Assembly: GCF_022201045.2 (NCBI RefSeq)
Contig: NC_068557.1
Span: forward strand, 12,088,501-12,152,500
Source: Citrus sinensis
Taxonomy: Eukaryota; Streptophyta; Magnoliopsida; Sapindales; Rutaceae
Length of the DNA: 64,000 nt
Direction of reading: 5' to 3'
Part shown: piece after piece, positions 48,231 to 55,882 of the stretch
How the letters are laid out: each line of letters opens with the position of its first letter
How positions within the stretch are numbered: the stretch's first letter is position 1
Translations under genes and position numbers: made by a program
Notes under the pieces: model-generated
Seen by the model: the letters and a program-made list of their open reading frames with translations, nothing else
Told to the model about the DNA's origin: nothing
The model's database searches: none

Positions 48231-48448
48231 CTCTATATCATATAATCTTATAGAGTGATGATGTTTGCCCCGGGTCAAACCCCGAAAAATACAAAACGTC
48301 GTCGTTTTGTTTTTAAATTTTTTTTTTGCTTCGCGGTTTCTTATTTGCGTCGTTTTCTTTATTTTTTTCTTTTTCATTTCTTCCAGGCTTTCTTCATTTC
48401 TTTCGTTTCTTCCATCCTTTCTTCATTTCTTTTTCGTTTCTTCGTCTT

Positions 48449-48800
48449 AAGCTGAACGAGATCCACAGCCCTTGCAACAGCAGCTGAACGAGATCCACAG
48501 CCCTTGCATTTAGTGAAGAACAAGACTAAAGCCCTTGCACAGCCCTTGCTCCATCCTCTTCATCTTAAGCTAAACGAGATCTACAGCCCTTGCATTTAGT
48601 GAAGAACAAGACCAACAACAGCTGAGTTTCGGGTGAGTTTCGGTTGAGTTTCGGCTGCGAGCAAGATTAGTTTCGGCATCTACTAATTAAGCTGAACGAG
48701 ATCCACAGCCCTTGCATTTAGTGAAGAACAAGACCAACAACAGCAAGATTGGTTTCGGCTGAGTTTCGGCAAGATTAGTTTCGGTAGAGGAAGATTAACA
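48449..48800 (+). repeat. Subterminal repeats, left end of the MULE
   Basis: The word gctgaacgagatccacag and the following cccttgca recur at about 48449, 48482, 48567 and 48688, mostly followed by tttagtgaagaacaagac, and GAGTTTCGG repeats several times after about 48620. Subterminal repeat arrays often bind transposase or carry promoter signals. Confidence 0.75.
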
Positions 48801-49520
48801 TTGTGCCTGAAAGCTTGAATTTTGGAAGCTTGAATTTTTTTTTAGGTACTGTCTTCTTTGTAGCATTTTGTTTTTTAATTTAATTTTAAATTTTTCCCTG
48901 TGTTTTTACAACATTGTAACATTGTAACATTGAATTTATTTCTTCAGTTCTCATGTTCTTGAATTTATTTCTTCAGTAACATTGTAACAGTTTCCATACA
49001 TTAGCTGTTAGCATCACTAAGAAAAAAAAATAGAGTTGTTTGAAGCTAAATTGATGGTGATGTTAATCTATTTTTAATGTAGAAATTATGTTGTTTATGA
49101 AATTGGGTTGTAGCTTCGTAGGATTCAAAATCAATTTAAAAAATTGTGAACGAAGGGAGGTAGAGTAATGACTTGGGCTCTGTTTTTTTTATAATTATGT
49201 ATGTAATTAAATTGGGTATAATGGAATTGTTTTGTTAAAGGCAAGAGAATTAATATTATTGTTCTGAAGAAAGGAATTATGATCAGTATCAATCGATTTG
49301 AGTTTCTACATACATGGCTCAATTTATTTCAAGACTAGTTGATCATATTATTGTGTTTCTTCATCTGCAATTAATACAAGGGCTTCAGAAAAAGCAATGT
49401 GAGAAGATGTAATTACCATATGAGTTGTTTCATTTTGCTTTTGAAATTTTGTTTTTAAATTTAATGAATTTGCGATAAATAACTAATAAGATGTTGAATT
49501 ATTTTAATTTGCAGCAGTTA

Positions 49521-52042
49521 ATGGATAATTTTGAACAAGTGGAGGAGGTTGATGAAGTTGGGGAATTGCAGGATTTACAGGGGGCTGATTTGGAAGAAAA
49601 CAATGAGGAATTGGTGGTGGAAAATGTTGTTGAGCCTACGGTTGGGATGTCTTTTGATAGTCCTGATGAAATGTTTGAATATTATAAAACTTATGGCCTA
49701 CAAGAGGGGTTTCCAGTGATGCGGAGATCTTGTAGAAAAGGGGATGATGAGAGTTTGAGATATGTGACGTTTACTTGTGGGAGAAACGGCAAGTCAAAAG
49801 CCAAAGCCACTAATGTTTTGCGGCTTCAACCAAACCAAAAGATTGGATGCAATGCTAAAATTGGAGGACGTTTGTATATTGTTAGTGGAAAATGGGTAAT
49901 TGGAAATTTGATCCTTGAACACAACCATGCCGTGAGTCCGAGCAAGATCGATGCATTCGTTCCATTAGTCATTTTGTTAAAAAGCAGCTTGAAATAAATG
50001 AAGAAGCTAGAATTAAAATGGCTCAAAGTTTTAAGTCGATTGTTGTCGAGGTTGGTGGCTTTGAAAATGTGTCATTTTTAGAAAGAGATGCTAGAAATCA
50101 TGTTGACAAGGTGAGGCGATTAAGACTCGGAGAAGGGGATGCTATTGCAATTCAGAGGTATTTTCAGAAAATGCAAACAGAAAATGATGGGTTTTACTTC
50201 AGTATTGACCTAGATGAGGAGGGTCGGTTAAAAAATGTATTTTGGGCAGATCCAAGGAGCAGGGCAGCCTATAAGGACTTTGGGGATGTTGTCACATTTG
50301 ATACCACATACCTAACAAACAAGTATGACATGCCATTTGCTCTTTTTGTAGGAGTTAATCATCATGGTCAATCAATTTTGTTAGGATGTGGGTTGATTTC
50401 GCATGAGGACACGGAAACATTTACGTAGTTATTTGACACATGGCTATCATGTATGTCTGGGTGTCCTCCCCTTGGAATCATTACAGATCAAGATAAAGCG
50501 ATGAAAAAGGCAATTCAGATTATTTTTCCAGACACTAGGCATCGATGGTGTTTGTGGCATATATTGAAAAAGGTGCCTGAGAAGTTGGGAAGGTATGCAG
50601 AATATCATGCCATTAAAGTTTCATTACTTTCTGTTGTTTATGACTTACATACTCCTGTTGAATTCGAGGAAGCTTGGCATGACATGTTAGTTAGATATGA
50701 TCTGAGAAATAATCAGTGGTTGAATGATTTGTATGAGGAAAGAAATCGTTGGGTTCCAGCATTCGTGAAAACTACTTTTTGGGCTGGAATGTCAACCACT
50801 CAGCGTAGTGAGAGTATGAATGCTTTCTTTGATGGGTATGTTAACTCGAAGACAACTTTGAAGCAATTTGTGGAGAAATATGAGAAAGCAATGGAAAGTA
50901 AAATTGAGAAAGAATGGCAAGCAGATGCACGAAGTTTTAGCCAACGGTTGCCATGTCGTACCAGTTTTGCCATGGAAAAGCAAGTTGAAGAAGTGTACAC
51001 TATTTCCAAGTTTCAGGATTTTCAGCAAGAGCTGGTGAATAAGATATATTGTGAGGTTTTCAGTTGTGGGAGATCAGAATATGAAGTTATTGAAAACGAT
51101 GAAAAGAGTAGAGAAAAGACTTTTAGAGTCATTTTTGAAAAAGATGAAGGTGAAATTCGTTGTGTGTGCTCAATGTTTGAATACAAGGGCATTCTTTGCA
51201 AACACGCTATCGCAGTGTTATCACGTAACCGTGTGCAATTACTGCCTGAAAAGTATATCCTACGAAGATGGAGGAAAGATGTGCGGAGGTTCTCTAGTAA
51301 AGTCAAAGTCATTATGATGCACGGAGTTCGAGCATTGAACATCAGCGATATAGAGAGGAGTGCACTGCTTTTTATGATGTTGCTGAGGTAGCTTCCAAAA
51401 ATGAAGAAAGTCATAAAAACATTATGGGTTGGATTGAGAAAGCTATGAAGGATGTTTCTCTAAATGTTCGATGTGACGACAACGATACAACCATTGATGG
51501 TGGATCCAGTAGTAACATACAAAATCCAGTGGTAAGTCGGCGTAAAGGTCGTCCACCTAGTCAAAGAAAGCAAAAGCAATTTAAGCGGCCAAAACAGAAA
51601 TCGAACATTTCGATAAACACAACTATAGAGGTAATTGTATATACTTTAGATTAATTTAATACTTTAATACATTCATTTTAAATTAATTTAATATATACTT
51701 TAAATGTGTGTTGACTGCACTCCTAGGACGCGGAGATACATGATTTATCTTCTCAGGTGGCCACTACAATCCCAACACAAGAGAGCAATATGGCTATGGT
51801 AATATTGTTTTATTTGCTATTTCCTTTCATTGTCATATGTTTGATAATTTGTGTTTAACTTTTTTTTTTTGGTACAACAACAACCACAACAAGCACCCCC
51901 ACAACATGCATTTTTCCCCCCGTACTATCAGTATTGGATGAATTACGGTCCAACTCATCATGTGCAATTGCAACATGCACCGCAACAAAATTTCGAGGAG
52001 GCCAATCAAGGTGAGTTTTCAACTTATGAACCAAGCATGTAA
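49521..52042 (+). pseudogene. FAR1/FHY3-type MULE transposase, inactivated
   Basis: Starting at ATG 49521, just after an intron-acceptor-like TTTGCAG, this encodes an acidic leader, a FAR1 DNA-binding domain (FDSPDEMFEYYKTYG through LEHNH), a MULE DDE catalytic core (VVTFDTTYLTNKYDMPFALF, then ITDQDKAM, then HRWCLWHIL) and a SWIM zinc finger (CVCSMFEYKGILCKHAIAVL). Three lesions are visible: a frameshift at about 49945-49950, a TAG stop at 50426-50428 where a Trp is usual, and a single-base frameshift near 51307. After the third lesion the frame resumes at about 51310 and runs to a GT at about 51631. A small exon at about 51727-51799 and a Gln-rich tail up to 52042 seem to follow, though the acceptor of the last exon is not clear. 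It sits inside the TIR-bounded element, so it is a transposon gene, not a domesticated FAR1 factor. Confidence 0.88.
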
Positions 52043-52132
52043 TCGAAGTTAGCTTATGCTTATATTTTATGTGTTATTCAACTAATGAACTAATGTAATT
52101 TGGTGTATGTGTATTTCGACATTTTTTAAATT

Positions 52133-52760
52133 ATGGAGTTCATAAGTCTATTTTCAAAATTCTAGAAATGGATTAATTTGGAAAATATTAGAATGATTTG
52201 GGCCATAGTATAATTTTAAGAATAATTTTTGGGGCCAAATTATAATTTCATAATACTATGAATTAATAAGTTTATTTTCAAAAGTTTAGAATTGGATTAA
52301 TTTCGAAAATATTAGAATGATTTGGGCCATAGTATAATTTTGAGAATAATTTTTGGGGCCAAATTATAATTTCATAATACTGTGAATTAATAAGTTTATT
52401 TTCAAAAGTTTAGAATTGGATTAATTTCGAAAATATTAGAATGATTTGGGCCATAGTATAATTTTGAGAATAATTTTTGGGGCCAAATTATAATTTTATA
52501 ATACTATGAATTAATAAGTTTATTTTCAAAAGTTTAGAATTGGATTAATTTCGAAAATATTAGAATGATTTGGGCCATAGTATAATTTTGAGAATAATTT
52601 TTGGGGCCAAATTATAATTTCATAATACTGTGAATTAATAAGTTTATTTTCAAAAGTTTAGAATTGAATTAATTTCGAAAATATTAGAATGATTTGGGCC
52701 ATAGTATAATTTTGAGAATAATTTTTGGGGCCAAATTATAATTTTATAATACTGTGAATT
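52133..52760. repeat. Five-unit 124-bp tandem repeat inside the MULE
   Basis: The word gatttgggccatagtataat starts at 52195, 52319, 52443, 52567 and 52691, an exact 124-base period. Units 2 to 5 are nearly identical; the first is more diverged. No spacers or coding frame. It lies between the 3' ends of the convergent transposase and GRF genes. Confidence 0.93.
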
Positions 52761-52847
52761 AAATCCAGAGAGTTAAACTACTCGGAAACTTATATTTAAC
52801 ATGAAAATGCTATTACATATGTCTACAAGTCTTTAACTTAAAACAAC

Positions 52848-53243
52848 TTAAAAATAATACTTTAAGAGAAAACATAATACAACAATCATCAGTATTTTAA
52901 TAAAATCATATCGTGGTGCCTCTCTCTTTCGAAGTTCGTCGTCCAATAATCGCCTCTGCACTTCACGTTCTCGCATATGCTCAAGTTCTTTATGCAATAA
53001 TTGAAATTTAACCGACAAACACTCGATCTCTAAGCCTAACTTCGTAATTTCATCCCCTAACAAGTCTATTTTCTCTTCGGTAGGTTTATGATCTTCTGCC
53101 CATTGAAAGTTCTTACATCCTCTACAAATCCAAAATTTTCGATTTGGATTTTTTGTTGTGCGTGACGTTAACAACTCCATATGATTACCGCATCTATTAC
53201 ACATTTGCAATGAGCTCCGATTCTCACTTAGCTCGGATGACAT
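52848..53243 (-). CDS. GRF-type zinc-finger protein with membrane tail, carried by the MULE
   Basis: This intact 131-aa ORF has a GRF zinc finger at residues about 14-50: CNRCG, then ELLTSRT, NPNRKFW and CRGCKNFQW. In GRF domains these Cys residues bind zinc and the domain is known to bind single-stranded nucleic acid. A charged, probably coiled-coil stretch follows (about 52-110), and the last ~17 residues are hydrophobic (ILMIVVLCFLL), a likely tail anchor. It reads toward the transposase from the right side of the element. Just upstream is a possible leader intron acceptor (TTTTTGGGCAG at about 53275). Its role in transposition is unknown; by position it is the counterpart of mudrB, but I see no resemblance to MURB. 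Confidence 0.8.
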   Translation of the reverse strand: MSSELSENRSSLQMCNRCGNHMELLTSRTTKNPNRKFWICRGCKNFQWAEDHKPTEEKIDLLGDEITKLGLEIECLSVKFQLLHKELEHMREREVQRRLLDDELRKREAPRYDFIKILMIVVLCFLLKYYF

Positions 53244-53399
53244 TGTTTGTGGTTAATAGTCCCTTGAGAATAAACTGCCCAAAAACGGAAACAATTACAG
53301 TTAATAATGCCAAAGAAATTACCCAAATCAAATTTTAATTGCAATTACAGTTAGTTAGACTTAAAAGAAAAGAAAACTGGAACATATGAACAGCATGAT

Positions 53400-53785
53400 T
53401 ACTGCCTGAACCACCCAGCAACATGCCAGAAAATACCACCCACAACCCAAGCCACATGCCAGTAGCTAATACCAAAATGCCAGAAACCCAGCAGCTAATC
53501 TCCAAACTAGAAGCAACATGCCAGAAAATACCACCCAGAACCCAAGCCACATGCCAGCAGCTAATACCAAAATGCCAAAAACAAACTAGCAGCAACATGC
53601 CAAAAAATACCACCAACAGCCCAAGCCACATGCCAGCAACTAATACCAAAATGCCAGAAACCCAACAACTAATATCCAAACTAGAAGCAACATGCCAGAA
53701 AATACCACCCAGCAACCACCCAGCAGCTATGAAAACTAGAAGCAACATGCCAGAAAGGCTATCAAAGAACCCAAGCCAAAATGCA
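53400..53785. repeat. Subterminal repeats, right side of the MULE
   Basis: The word acatgccagaaaataccacc (with variants) starts at about 53421, 53516, 53595, 53690 and 53745, interleaved with gccacatgccag and ctaataccaaaatgcc. The period alternates between about 95, 79 and 55 bases. The hydrophobic open frame on the minus strand here arises from the repeat and is not counted as a gene. Confidence 0.8.
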
Positions 53786-54389
53786 CACAATCTATACACA
53801 CACAACTGGAGATAAAATACAACCCTCCATCAATAATATTAATCCTCATCACTCGGTTACATTAATTTAAAAAATAACATAAAATACAGAAAGAGAACAG
53901 CTGCAATTGATTCAAATAAGGAATATCTGATTTGGATTTGCCCTACTTAATACTCTCTGTCATGGCTAAGTTTTGCTGTTTCGCTTTACAATTCCCGCTT
54001 CTATCGATTTGTTCCATCACAAACCCTTCTTGTGCTTAACAATTAACCACTGTAATTAGAAAAATTCCCACTAAGACCAACTTATTCCATTGAGTGTACA
54101 CTTTAGCAACAATAATAATTCAAAGAGATTAACTCATAGTTTTGTAATTGTTGTTACAAAAATTAAGTCAGTGGATAAAAAAATGCAAGAGTCATGAATC
54201 CTAGATCAGGGTCATGAAAATCAAATAAGAGACCCTGATGCCATGATTGTGGGTCGGATGCCTAACTAATTAGAACTCAACAAAGCTCCAAATGAGGAAG
54301 ATTCTAAAAGTGTGATCTTCAAAAATTAAATTAAATTAAAGAGGAGCAAAATTTAGCAAATAGAGCTTTCAAGTGGAACAAAATTCAAT

Positions 54390-54620
54390 AATTCAACAGG
54401 GCAATGAAATTAAATCAGAGAGGAACAAAATTTAGTACTTGCTGAGCAATGAAATTAAATTCAACAGGGCAGCCTAACCTAGATCAACCAAATCGTCCCC
54501 ATTTTGCCATAACCTAAAGAGGAAAAAACGAAGCATTACCAGGGCAGCCTAACCTAGATCAACCAAATCATCCTCATTTTGCCATAACCTAAAGAGGAAA
54601 AAACAAAGCATTACCTCGGG
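54390..54620. repeat. 76-bp tandem duplication in the MULE right arm
   Basis: The block from agggcagcctaacctagatc to gaagcattacc starts at 54465 and again at 54541, with few differences. It lies where the leader of the GRF gene could be. Confidence 0.75.
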
Positions 54621-55882
54621 CTGTGAACTTTGCTGCTTCATGAGTTCAATTTCACGAACAAGTTTCGACTACCAGCGTTACCAGCTGAACGATGATCGTG
54701 GCTGTGAGTCGGTCGTCGTGGATCCCGAATGCCTGGACCTCGGGATAGGAAGGAAAGTAAAGAAACGAAGAAATGAAGAAACAAAAAAATGAAAAAACGA
54801 AGAAATGAAGAGATTTACGGTCAAACAGAATAAGACCAAGTTGGGATCTCTGTTGCTCTGTTGCTCTCACAGGTGAAACGAAGAAACAAAAATGAAGAGG
54901 AAGATAGATTTTATTCTTCTCAAAATATCATCAGAAACGTCGTCGTTTTAGAGTTTTCTAAAAGAAAAAAATAATAATCAAAACGACGCCGTTTACATGA
55001 TTTGCGGGGTTTGACCGGGGCAAACATCATTTTCCTATCTTATATACGCGCAATGCCGCTGAGAATGAGAGTTGCTAAAATTTTTGAAGGGCCAATTATC
55101 TCCAATTTGTTATTCGTTCGTTGAAACTCTAAACCTGTGACTACGAGACTACGAGACTACGAGAGCCAAAATTAGGGTTTTCTTGGCTGTTTTTTGTTTT
55201 AGGGTTTCAGTGATCGAAAACGAAATTGGGGTTATCAGGAATAATTTTAAAAAGCCCGGCAAATTGCCGCTGCCCTTGTGTCGGCCAATTGCTAAAAAAT
55301 TTGGCCGTTGTAAAACTAGAACAAACTTTTTTGCTTTTAGATCAATGGTTGGAGTTTTTTTTTTTTTCTCCTTAACATTTTGTTTGATTTTACAAAAATA
55401 TAGTATCTTCGAAGTACGCCTCTTGATGTGAGATTGGCATCGGTGAGGAGTTTTTATTTGTTAATTTTGAATATTTGCTGGGTTAGTTCCTTTCAAATAA
55501 AAGAGACCATTGGTCCGATCATGAAACTGTTTTGGGATTTTTTGCTTACCGAAAAAAATTGGTACTTCATTTTAAAATTTTTTGTTTTTATTATTATTTT
55601 GATTCCATGATGTTGTTCCTCGGCTTGCTTCTTGAACATTGTATTTGACTAAATAAATGTTTGTTGTCACATAGAAAATGTTTTGAAATTGAAATTTTCG
55701 TTTCTTTAATTTTTTTTAATTGATTTATTTAAATTTGTTTGTGGAATACTTGAGAATTTTGGCAAAACAATTACTTTATTTTTTATTTTTGAATGCTTTC
55801 TTATTTTAATATTATTGCAGCTTCAGTTCACTATGTTGAGAATATGTTTTGCTTGCTGCCTTGATAATGACTTATTTTCTGC

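Follow-up and report, generated by a model that had tools for sequence, protein, structure and literature searches.

Second open reading frames (ORFs) beside the transposase are known from several Mutator-like elements (MULEs), among them mudrB, vanB/vanC, mutB, PMD and ORFR (PMC6446971, PMC9168764; statements on published systems refer here and below to the cited sections of the papers). In MuDR of maize, the second gene, mudrB, lies opposite to the transposase and is needed for insertion (PMC6446971, PMC9168764). The ORFR of the Abermu elements of grasses likewise runs opposite to the transposase, with a ratio of nonsynonymous to synonymous substitution (Ka/Ks) of 0.39–0.56 and a function left unassigned in the source (PMC9168764). 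Jittery of maize has been described with one gene (PMC9168764) and without a mudrB homologue (PMC9569675); it is described as excising without reinsertion (PMC6446971), and a published table assigns a single ORF to the Jittery group of dicots and monocots (PMC6446971, Table 1). CitMule, which its authors grouped with Jittery and linked to a 2-Mb deletion in the spontaneous clementine bud sport Arrufatina, was published as one transcribed gene of five exons (PMC4334395). Here we report on a stretch of 64,000 nucleotides from Citrus sinensis (NC_068557.1, positions 12,088,501 to 12,152,500; hereafter the window), which contains an old two-gene MULE, a relative of CitMule with a dead transposase. 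The transposase enters this element from the left and an ORF for a protein with a GRF zinc ribbon enters convergently from the right, as an earlier reading made from the letters of the window (the sequence-only reading) had described.

The element thus differs from Jittery as described in having two genes, and it resembles MuDR and Abermu in the opposite direction of its second ORF. The likeness to MuDR is one of position only, the transposase belongs to another clade than that of MuDR, and both MURB and ORFR were compared with the GRF gene and its protein by description. We know of no likeness between the GRF protein and MURB. The cited sections of the Abermu paper neither contain the term ‘grf’ nor name a domain for ORFR (PMC9168764). 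Among the literature matches listed, with subscription papers, preprints and Repbase outside the scope, no paper linked a GRF zinc finger to a plant MULE, and the two papers containing both ‘GRF-type’ and ‘transposase’ named them separately in the parts available. Second ORFs in MULEs were known already; what is new is a second gene for a GRF zinc-ribbon protein.

A convergent GRF gene beside two types of MULE transposase

The searches covered one genome (300 Mb, 11 contigs; positions are given as contig:position). They scored part of the candidates (127 of 543, 94 of 1004 and 86 of 964 for the three transposase queries), so that all counts are lower bounds, and they ignored orientation, which was derived from their matches. 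A GRF locus was counted as paired when it lay within 8 kb of a MULE transposase. The window GRF protein gave at least 152 matches (150 were used and merged to 109 loci), and the window transposase gave at least 130, merged to 123 loci. The results showed that 58 of the 109 GRF loci were paired and that all 58 pairs were convergent, while random placement gave a mean of 0.73 pairs and a maximum of 5 in 2000 runs.

A Pfam search for GRF returned 58 loci, only five of which lay near a FAR1-type transposase. One of the 58 (L071) faces a transposase with MULE and SWIM domains whose open frame starts with the MuDR DNA-binding domain PF03108, which rules out that the GRF gene is confined to the FAR1 lineage. 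The union of searches was enlarged with the L071 transposase, a second MuDR-type transposase (L121), and the GRF proteins of L071 and CitMule; the latter gave 112 matches, of which 35 were entered and the remaining 77 all fell within the loci already counted. The union held at least 247 GRF loci and at least 232 transposase loci. With the three transposase queries, 113 of the 247 GRF loci were paired and each of the 113 pairs was convergent, a positive outcome of the check proposed earlier, which asked whether related MULEs have the GRF ORF on the right arm; random placement gave a mean of 3.2 pairs and a maximum of 10 in 300 runs. The MuDR-type queries had been picked for adjoining a GRF ORF, and their pairing rate is not representative of MULEs at large. 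Once MuDR-type transposases were included, 37 of the 58 Pfam loci were paired, a count that bears, within this one genome, on the proposal that such elements could explain many orphan plant GRF genes. The 3' side of 16 GRF ORFs was read: 13 of them showed a match to a MuDR-type transposase (E 2.1e-72 or better), those at L124 and L126 were weak, and L123 had none.

Two simpler classifications were rejected. The GRF gene is not a general neighbour of DNA transposons, as only 1 of the 247 loci lay within 8 kb of 150 hAT sites (the best 150 of 979 candidates scored). The elements are not Pack-MULEs, as a transposase adjoins the ORF at 113 loci and the ORF is intact and under selection.

The domain marks of the two transposase types never mixed. 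Within 4 kb, PF03108 was found on the same strand for 106 of the 177 MuDR-type transposase matches and a FAR1 domain for none of them, and a FAR1 domain was found for 47 of the 123 FAR1-type loci and PF03108 for none. At C3:5697819 and C8:23546118 (the L071 and L121 transposases), PF03108 lay upstream and shared the open frame of the transposase, which identifies these as MuDR-type. Thus, the GRF gene is present in two MULE branches, and the convergent ORF of the MuDR-type MULEs has the matching plan of a ribbon followed by a hydrophobic C-terminus.

The window GRF protein matched PF06839 with 26.2 bits, barely above the cut-off of 25.9, which was also passed by the proteins of L071 (40.8 bits), L128 (33.3) and L129 (27.3); a search of NCBIfam profiles gave no match above cut-off. 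The AlphaFold2 single-sequence model (mean predicted local distance difference test score 84.7; predicted template modelling score 0.44) has three strands in residues 21-48 and one helix in residues 56-130. A Foldseek search with this model found no match at E 0.001 or better; its top ranks were zinc ribbons of the RPB9/TFIIS type (best E 0.046), with the GRF domains of NEIL3 at rank 33. GRF zinc ribbons (PF06839) occur in NEIL3 and also in APE2 and TOP3. The likeness to NEIL3 is weak by fold, and by sequence it was found for the L071 protein (E 0.00034). In all three enzymes the ribbon is part of a DNA-repair or topoisomerase protein, whereas here its sole companion is a helix with a hydrophobic end. 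Within the window protein, the final 17-mer is more hydrophobic than any other, and a hydrophobic 17-mer lay at most 7 residues from the C-terminus in seven of seven representatives from FAR1- and MuDR-type elements (mean Kyte-Doolittle 1.85–3.42), suggesting that this end is possibly tail-anchoring. All seven share the ribbon and the hydrophobic end, and their sequences beyond the ribbon are barely similar. The sequence-only reading had joined a GRF finger to a coiled coil and a hydrophobic tail; the ribbon was confirmed, the tail fits the hydropathy of the C-terminus, and the coiled coil would be consistent with the modelled helix.

It is possible, although we lean against it, that FAR1-type and MuDR-type MULEs gained unrelated GRF genes independently. 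In the alignment, the proteins of the two groups are alike in character and share little sequence beyond the ribbon, and FAR1-type loci were not seen by eye among the matches listed for the L071 GRF query. Independent gain would, however, have to account for the GRF domain, similar size, hydrophobic C-terminus and convergent position that the two groups have in common.

Selection, co-inheritance and the exceptions

Between intact subfamilies, the pairwise ratios of nonsynonymous to synonymous substitution rates (dN/dS) of the GRF ORF were 0.39, 0.26 and 0.20, with 95% intervals of 0.18–0.75, 0.16–0.50 and 0.09–0.32, respectively (codon bootstrap, one representative pair per comparison). The comparison of dN/dS across copies that had been suggested from the window thus points to purifying selection. 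Codon models gave an omega of 0.45 for 8 intact GRF copies, 0.29 for 11 intact copies including CitMule and a third subfamily, and 0.58 for 18 copies including broken ones with stops masked; the CitMule GRF begins one codon late in this alignment (start absent, stop masked), with its frame correct. At one common subfamily split, the mean GRF dS was 0.26 and the transposase dS 0.25–0.31 (transposase dN/dS 0.22–0.29), suggesting that both genes have been together for about equally long. The distance matrices of the two genes were correlated over 13 pairs (r = 0.79, a value reached by 0 of 5000 permutations), and the correlation was 0.98 once CitMule was included.

The copy at C3:6790111-6797037 (family B; 6927 bp, duplication TTGTTGAAA) corresponds by chromosome, length and duplication to CitMule_1 of Citrus clementina, published at chromosome 3, 6785326, with 6926 bp and the duplication TTGTTGAAA (PMC4334395); the match was made on the published description and not on sequence. 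CitMule-type copies encode a transposase with FAR1, MULE and SWIM domains (PF10551 124.7 bits), a composition common to CitMule_1 to CitMule_4 and family B. The window element is a cousin: its transposase is about 61% identical to that of CitMule over the part searched, which makes it a relative and not a CitMule, and the window copy belongs to a separate, broken subfamily. The GRF proteins of CitMule and of the window type are 41–49% identical over their aligned parts. In print CitMule_1 has one five-exon gene, whereas we found a convergent and intact GRF gene in it; the text of the CitMule paper contains none of the terms ‘grf’, ‘second gene’, ‘mudrB’, ‘antisense’ or ‘opposite’ (PMC4334395).

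Over 3867 bp, no difference separates four of the five full CitMule_1-type copies, and another has 11 differences; perfect duplications flank four of the five, and the remaining one has a 10-bp match. The GRF frame is open in all five, and the GRF protein is identical in eight loci. Four of those eight share the right end, with the transposase absent from its expected place. These derivatives, at C5:26.65, C5:35.28 and C1:21.23 Mb (L080/L088, L084/L090 and L086/L091) and at C5:34.60 (L082/L089), have a convergent 398-codon FAR1 frame 1596 bp from the GRF ORF, which at C5:26.65 matches the first 342 transposase residues. Perfect 9-bp duplications flank three of the four; for the fourth, no left end was located. 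This derivative form of CitMule, with its second gene retained, has spread.

Since position and orientation recur across subfamilies, the two genes diverge together, the ORF is under purifying selection, and it is intact in a young family, the GRF ORF is a resident gene of the element, a conclusion that we hold with very high confidence.

Several observations weigh against a resident accessory gene or limit the case for it. With marks added from searches for the FAR1 domain (150 of 341 candidates scored) and the PF03108 MuDR domain (150 of 451), 130 of the 247 GRF loci lay within 8 kb of a MULE mark, 123 of them convergent and seven not (five same-strand and two divergent). Convergence of every pair is therefore valid for the three transposase queries at 8 kb only, and the convergent plan is a rule, not a law. 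The other 117 of 247 GRF loci had no MULE mark within 8 kb; some such loci are to be expected, as not all candidates of the searches were scored. Of 88 FAR1-type transposases with at least 55% identity, 52 were paired and 36 had no detected GRF partner within 8 kb; nine of the unpaired were stop-free (eight in the 55–70% band and one at 86%). Since unpaired transposases occur in both upper identity classes, a strict need for the GRF gene is weakened. In rice, Abermu elements without a convergent ORF of their own still look mobile (PMC9168764). The CitMule GRF protein scored 13.8 bits for PF06839 and thus lies under the Pfam cut-off. Finally, the youngest subfamily has few GRF changes, with dN/dS from 0 to 0.8, and the dN/dS intervals for the ribbon alone or the tail alone include 1, with clear constraint only in the middle part. 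As regards the orientation exceptions, we left our confidence unchanged because 123 of 130 remains well beyond chance and most of the exceptions seem to form one further family.

Three of the seven exceptions share one layout (C3:23.80, C4:24.76 and C7:6.76 Mb), with the GRF in a 188-codon frame, a same-strand MuDR-domain frame 6.6 kb downstream and, on the opposite side, a divergent FAR1 frame at a distance of 14.9 kb (C4 and C7) or about 28 kb (C3). The locus at C5:9.22 resembles it (4.5 and 14.9 kb). The three-copy arrangement spans C3:23771508-23806355, C4:24753312-24775468 and C7:6740539-6762701, with a FAR1 frame of 508-887 codons, and may be either a nest or a single MULE of very large size that carries two transposase-like genes.

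By identity class, 26 of 34 FAR1-type transposases were paired at 70% or more, 26 of 54 at 55–70%, 5 of 10 at 47–55%, and 1 of 25 below 47% (0 of 19 among the stop-free); the last class looks like host FRS genes. Some of the unpaired transposases may belong to subfamilies that can do without the GRF gene, or their GRF gene may be too distant or too diverged to detect. Seven stop-free unpaired matches of 57–62% identity (C5:154942, C5:34096364, C5:38680726, C3:5918609, C4:7772439, C1:7707078 and C3:39802927) could represent a subfamily in which the second gene was lost, replaced, or very diverged. The flanks of five more FAR1 transposases (L059-L063), covering 1.5 kb, contained no GRF by profile search. 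The transposase at C3:36227771, counted as unpaired, shares one pair of ends with a GRF locus 20 kb away. The intact transposase at C1:1269170 is followed by 3 kb (L110) of one open frame, which looks like a polyprotein of a long terminal repeat element. Clustered FAR1 relatives of 35–42% identity, nearly all stop-free and without GRF partners (C6:18815678-18827983, C7:12459360-12640871 and C7:29341965-29369956), are probably host FRS genes in tandem. At C2:11000162-11000903, a single frame of 819 codons holds two FAR1 domains; immediately upstream, and on its strand, lies a GRF-like match, perhaps from a fusion or an adjacent gene.

The element in the window

The window element has the transposase domain PF10551, in two pieces of 53.0 and 44.8 bits, together with inverted ends and a target duplication (8 of 9 positions), and is thus a MULE. 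An N-terminal FAR1 domain and a SWIM finger place its transposase in the FAR1/Jittery clade, on domains only. An in-frame stop at 50426-50428 closes the ORF 50018-50428 in the transposase. The features are collected below.

Coordinates of the element, its genes and its repeats in the window
Feature	Position	Strand	Basis or detail
Whole MULE with FAR1-type transposase	48253..55035	+	6783 bp
Left target-site duplication AATCTTATA	48244..48252		8/9 versus right copy
Left terminal inverted repeat	48253..48330	+	self-comparison and alignment
Transposase coding region, inactivated	49479..51651	+	three pieces (49479-49946, 49949-51310, 51313-51651) versus intact sister
FAR1 DNA-binding domain PF03101	49677..49937	+	Pfam, 52.7 bits
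SWIM zinc finger PF04434	51128..51223	+	Pfam, 38.6 bits
Tandem array between both convergent 3' ends	52142..52762		repeat analysis; 124-bp unit x 5
Second gene, GRF zinc-ribbon protein, intact	52848..53243	-	ORF and Pfam; 131 aa
Hydrophobic C-terminal tail	52851..52901	-	hydropathy; residues 115-131, mean Kyte-Doolittle 2.16
GRF zinc ribbon PF06839	53091..53204	-	Pfam; residues 14-51, Cys 15, 18, 40, 43
Right terminal inverted repeat	54958..55035	-	self-comparison and alignment
Right target-site duplication TATCTTATA	55036..55044		alignment of flanks

The left end opens GAGTGATGATGTTTGCC and the right end closes GGCAAACATCATTTTCC. The element itself had been recognised by the sequence-only reading, at 48254..55036; both of its ends lie one base further to the left. 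The inverted ends were also confirmed: 70 nt (48258-48327 and 54961-55030) are 74% complementary, with a 20-nt core at 90%, and the left terminal repeat gave 41 matches in the genome search. The 9-bp duplication that had been claimed is imperfect in the window copy; an identity of 8/9 or more occurs between random 9-mers of the window at a frequency of 0.0004. Nine sister loci with end matches on both sides were picked by hand and their boundaries judged by eye. Six had a perfect 9-bp duplication (one of them inside an AAT repeat), one a 7/9 match and two none; GAGTG starts eight of the nine left ends and TTTCC closes all nine right ends. Given the sister ends and the perfect duplications of sisters, the boundaries of the window element are correct and its 8/9 duplication is most simply explained by decay. 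One of these sister loci has a length of 24.5 kb, which presumably reflects nested insertions.

The 124-bp array is present in 2 to 7 copies in five sisters (L010, L011, L012, L013 and L015), and the CitMule-type element has another, longer tandem-repeat region at the corresponding place between the 3' ends. Terminal repeat pairs 1.0–1.4 kb apart (C2:27482078-27483099, C9:10887503-10888615, C1:20328583-20330022, C5:20823200-20824365 and C2:32089337-32090479) are probably short non-autonomous derivatives of the family of the window element. At C3:18343269-18346989, a 3.7-kb element with a perfect duplication has retained a broken piece of the GRF gene, with no transposase detected.

Proposed role and significance

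We explain these observations by a two-gene MULE with a resident, selected GRF gene whose product would act as an accessory protein in transposition, and put the probability of this explanation as a whole at roughly 0.8. Most likely, the GRF gene occupies the place that mudrB has in MuDR, with an accessory role. Taken separately, the odds that the protein helps transposition are about even. The accessory-gene proposal made from the window is thereby supported and extends beyond FAR1-type elements to MuDR-type MULEs and to CitMule_1, with the role itself an inference. In this scheme, binding to nucleic acid or to the transposition complex would fall to the ribbon and dimerisation to the long helix, and the hydrophobic tail would hold the protein at a membrane, in the simplest case that of the nuclear envelope or endoplasmic reticulum; so fixed, the protein may assist a step such as reinsertion. 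These steps are proposed because GRF ribbons elsewhere, as in APE2 and NEIL3, bind nucleic acid, the helix is long, and the C-terminus is hydrophobic. That Jittery, as described, has one gene and excises without reinsertion fits a GRF role in reinsertion and is suggestive. More tentatively, and at slightly less than even odds, the FAR1/Jittery and MuDR branches may share an old tail-anchored GRF second gene, nearly always convergent and MURB-like in serving reinsertion, that would explain the majority of the GRF ORFs in this genome; CitMule and other MULEs published with one gene would then have been misread, and Jittery may have lost the gene.

A resident gene could also serve the element in other ways. 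It is unlikely, but deserves mention, that the GRF protein acts against silencing, as described for VANC of VANDAL, or sequesters host factors at a membrane. The second genes of Hiun and VANDAL include one with an anti-silencing function (PMC6446971), and the membrane tail would fit sequestration as well as work on DNA; on the other side, the zinc ribbon resembles nucleic-acid-binding ribbons (RPB9/TFIIS by fold, NEIL3 by sequence), which is nevertheless compatible with anti-silencing. Still less probable is a role in negative regulation or in control of the copy number of the element: the four CitMule derivatives with the 398-codon transposase frame keep an identical GRF protein, and three of them have perfect duplications, as a repressor-bearing derivative might, although the identity may reflect only the youth of the derivative. 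That the GRF ORF is a captured fragment of a host gene, carried as a passenger in the manner of Pack-MULEs, is very improbable, since neither the known capture of host sequences by MULEs (PMC6446971) nor the 117 unmarked GRF loci can offset the like place and orientation in all 113 pairs over two MULE lineages, the purifying selection, the matching dS, the correlated distances and the whole intact ORF, which together largely refute this reading; a host GRF gene with introns as its source was looked for among six-frame matches only.

MULEs rank with the most active transposons of plants, yet the difference between those that reinsert and those that only excise still calls for an explanation. 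In our view, mudrB has looked like an oddity of maize. Its recurrence at one place in two branches and the selection on it make this second gene a concrete, testable candidate for an accessory factor of general importance. The domains that expanded in Asteraceae include GRF-type fingers, which are listed next to those of transposons (PMC10359422, in the section cited), and GRF-type genes are named in association studies, in the parts of that literature available. If the present explanation is true, ‘GRF-type’ plant genes could be re-annotated from host genes to transposon genes.

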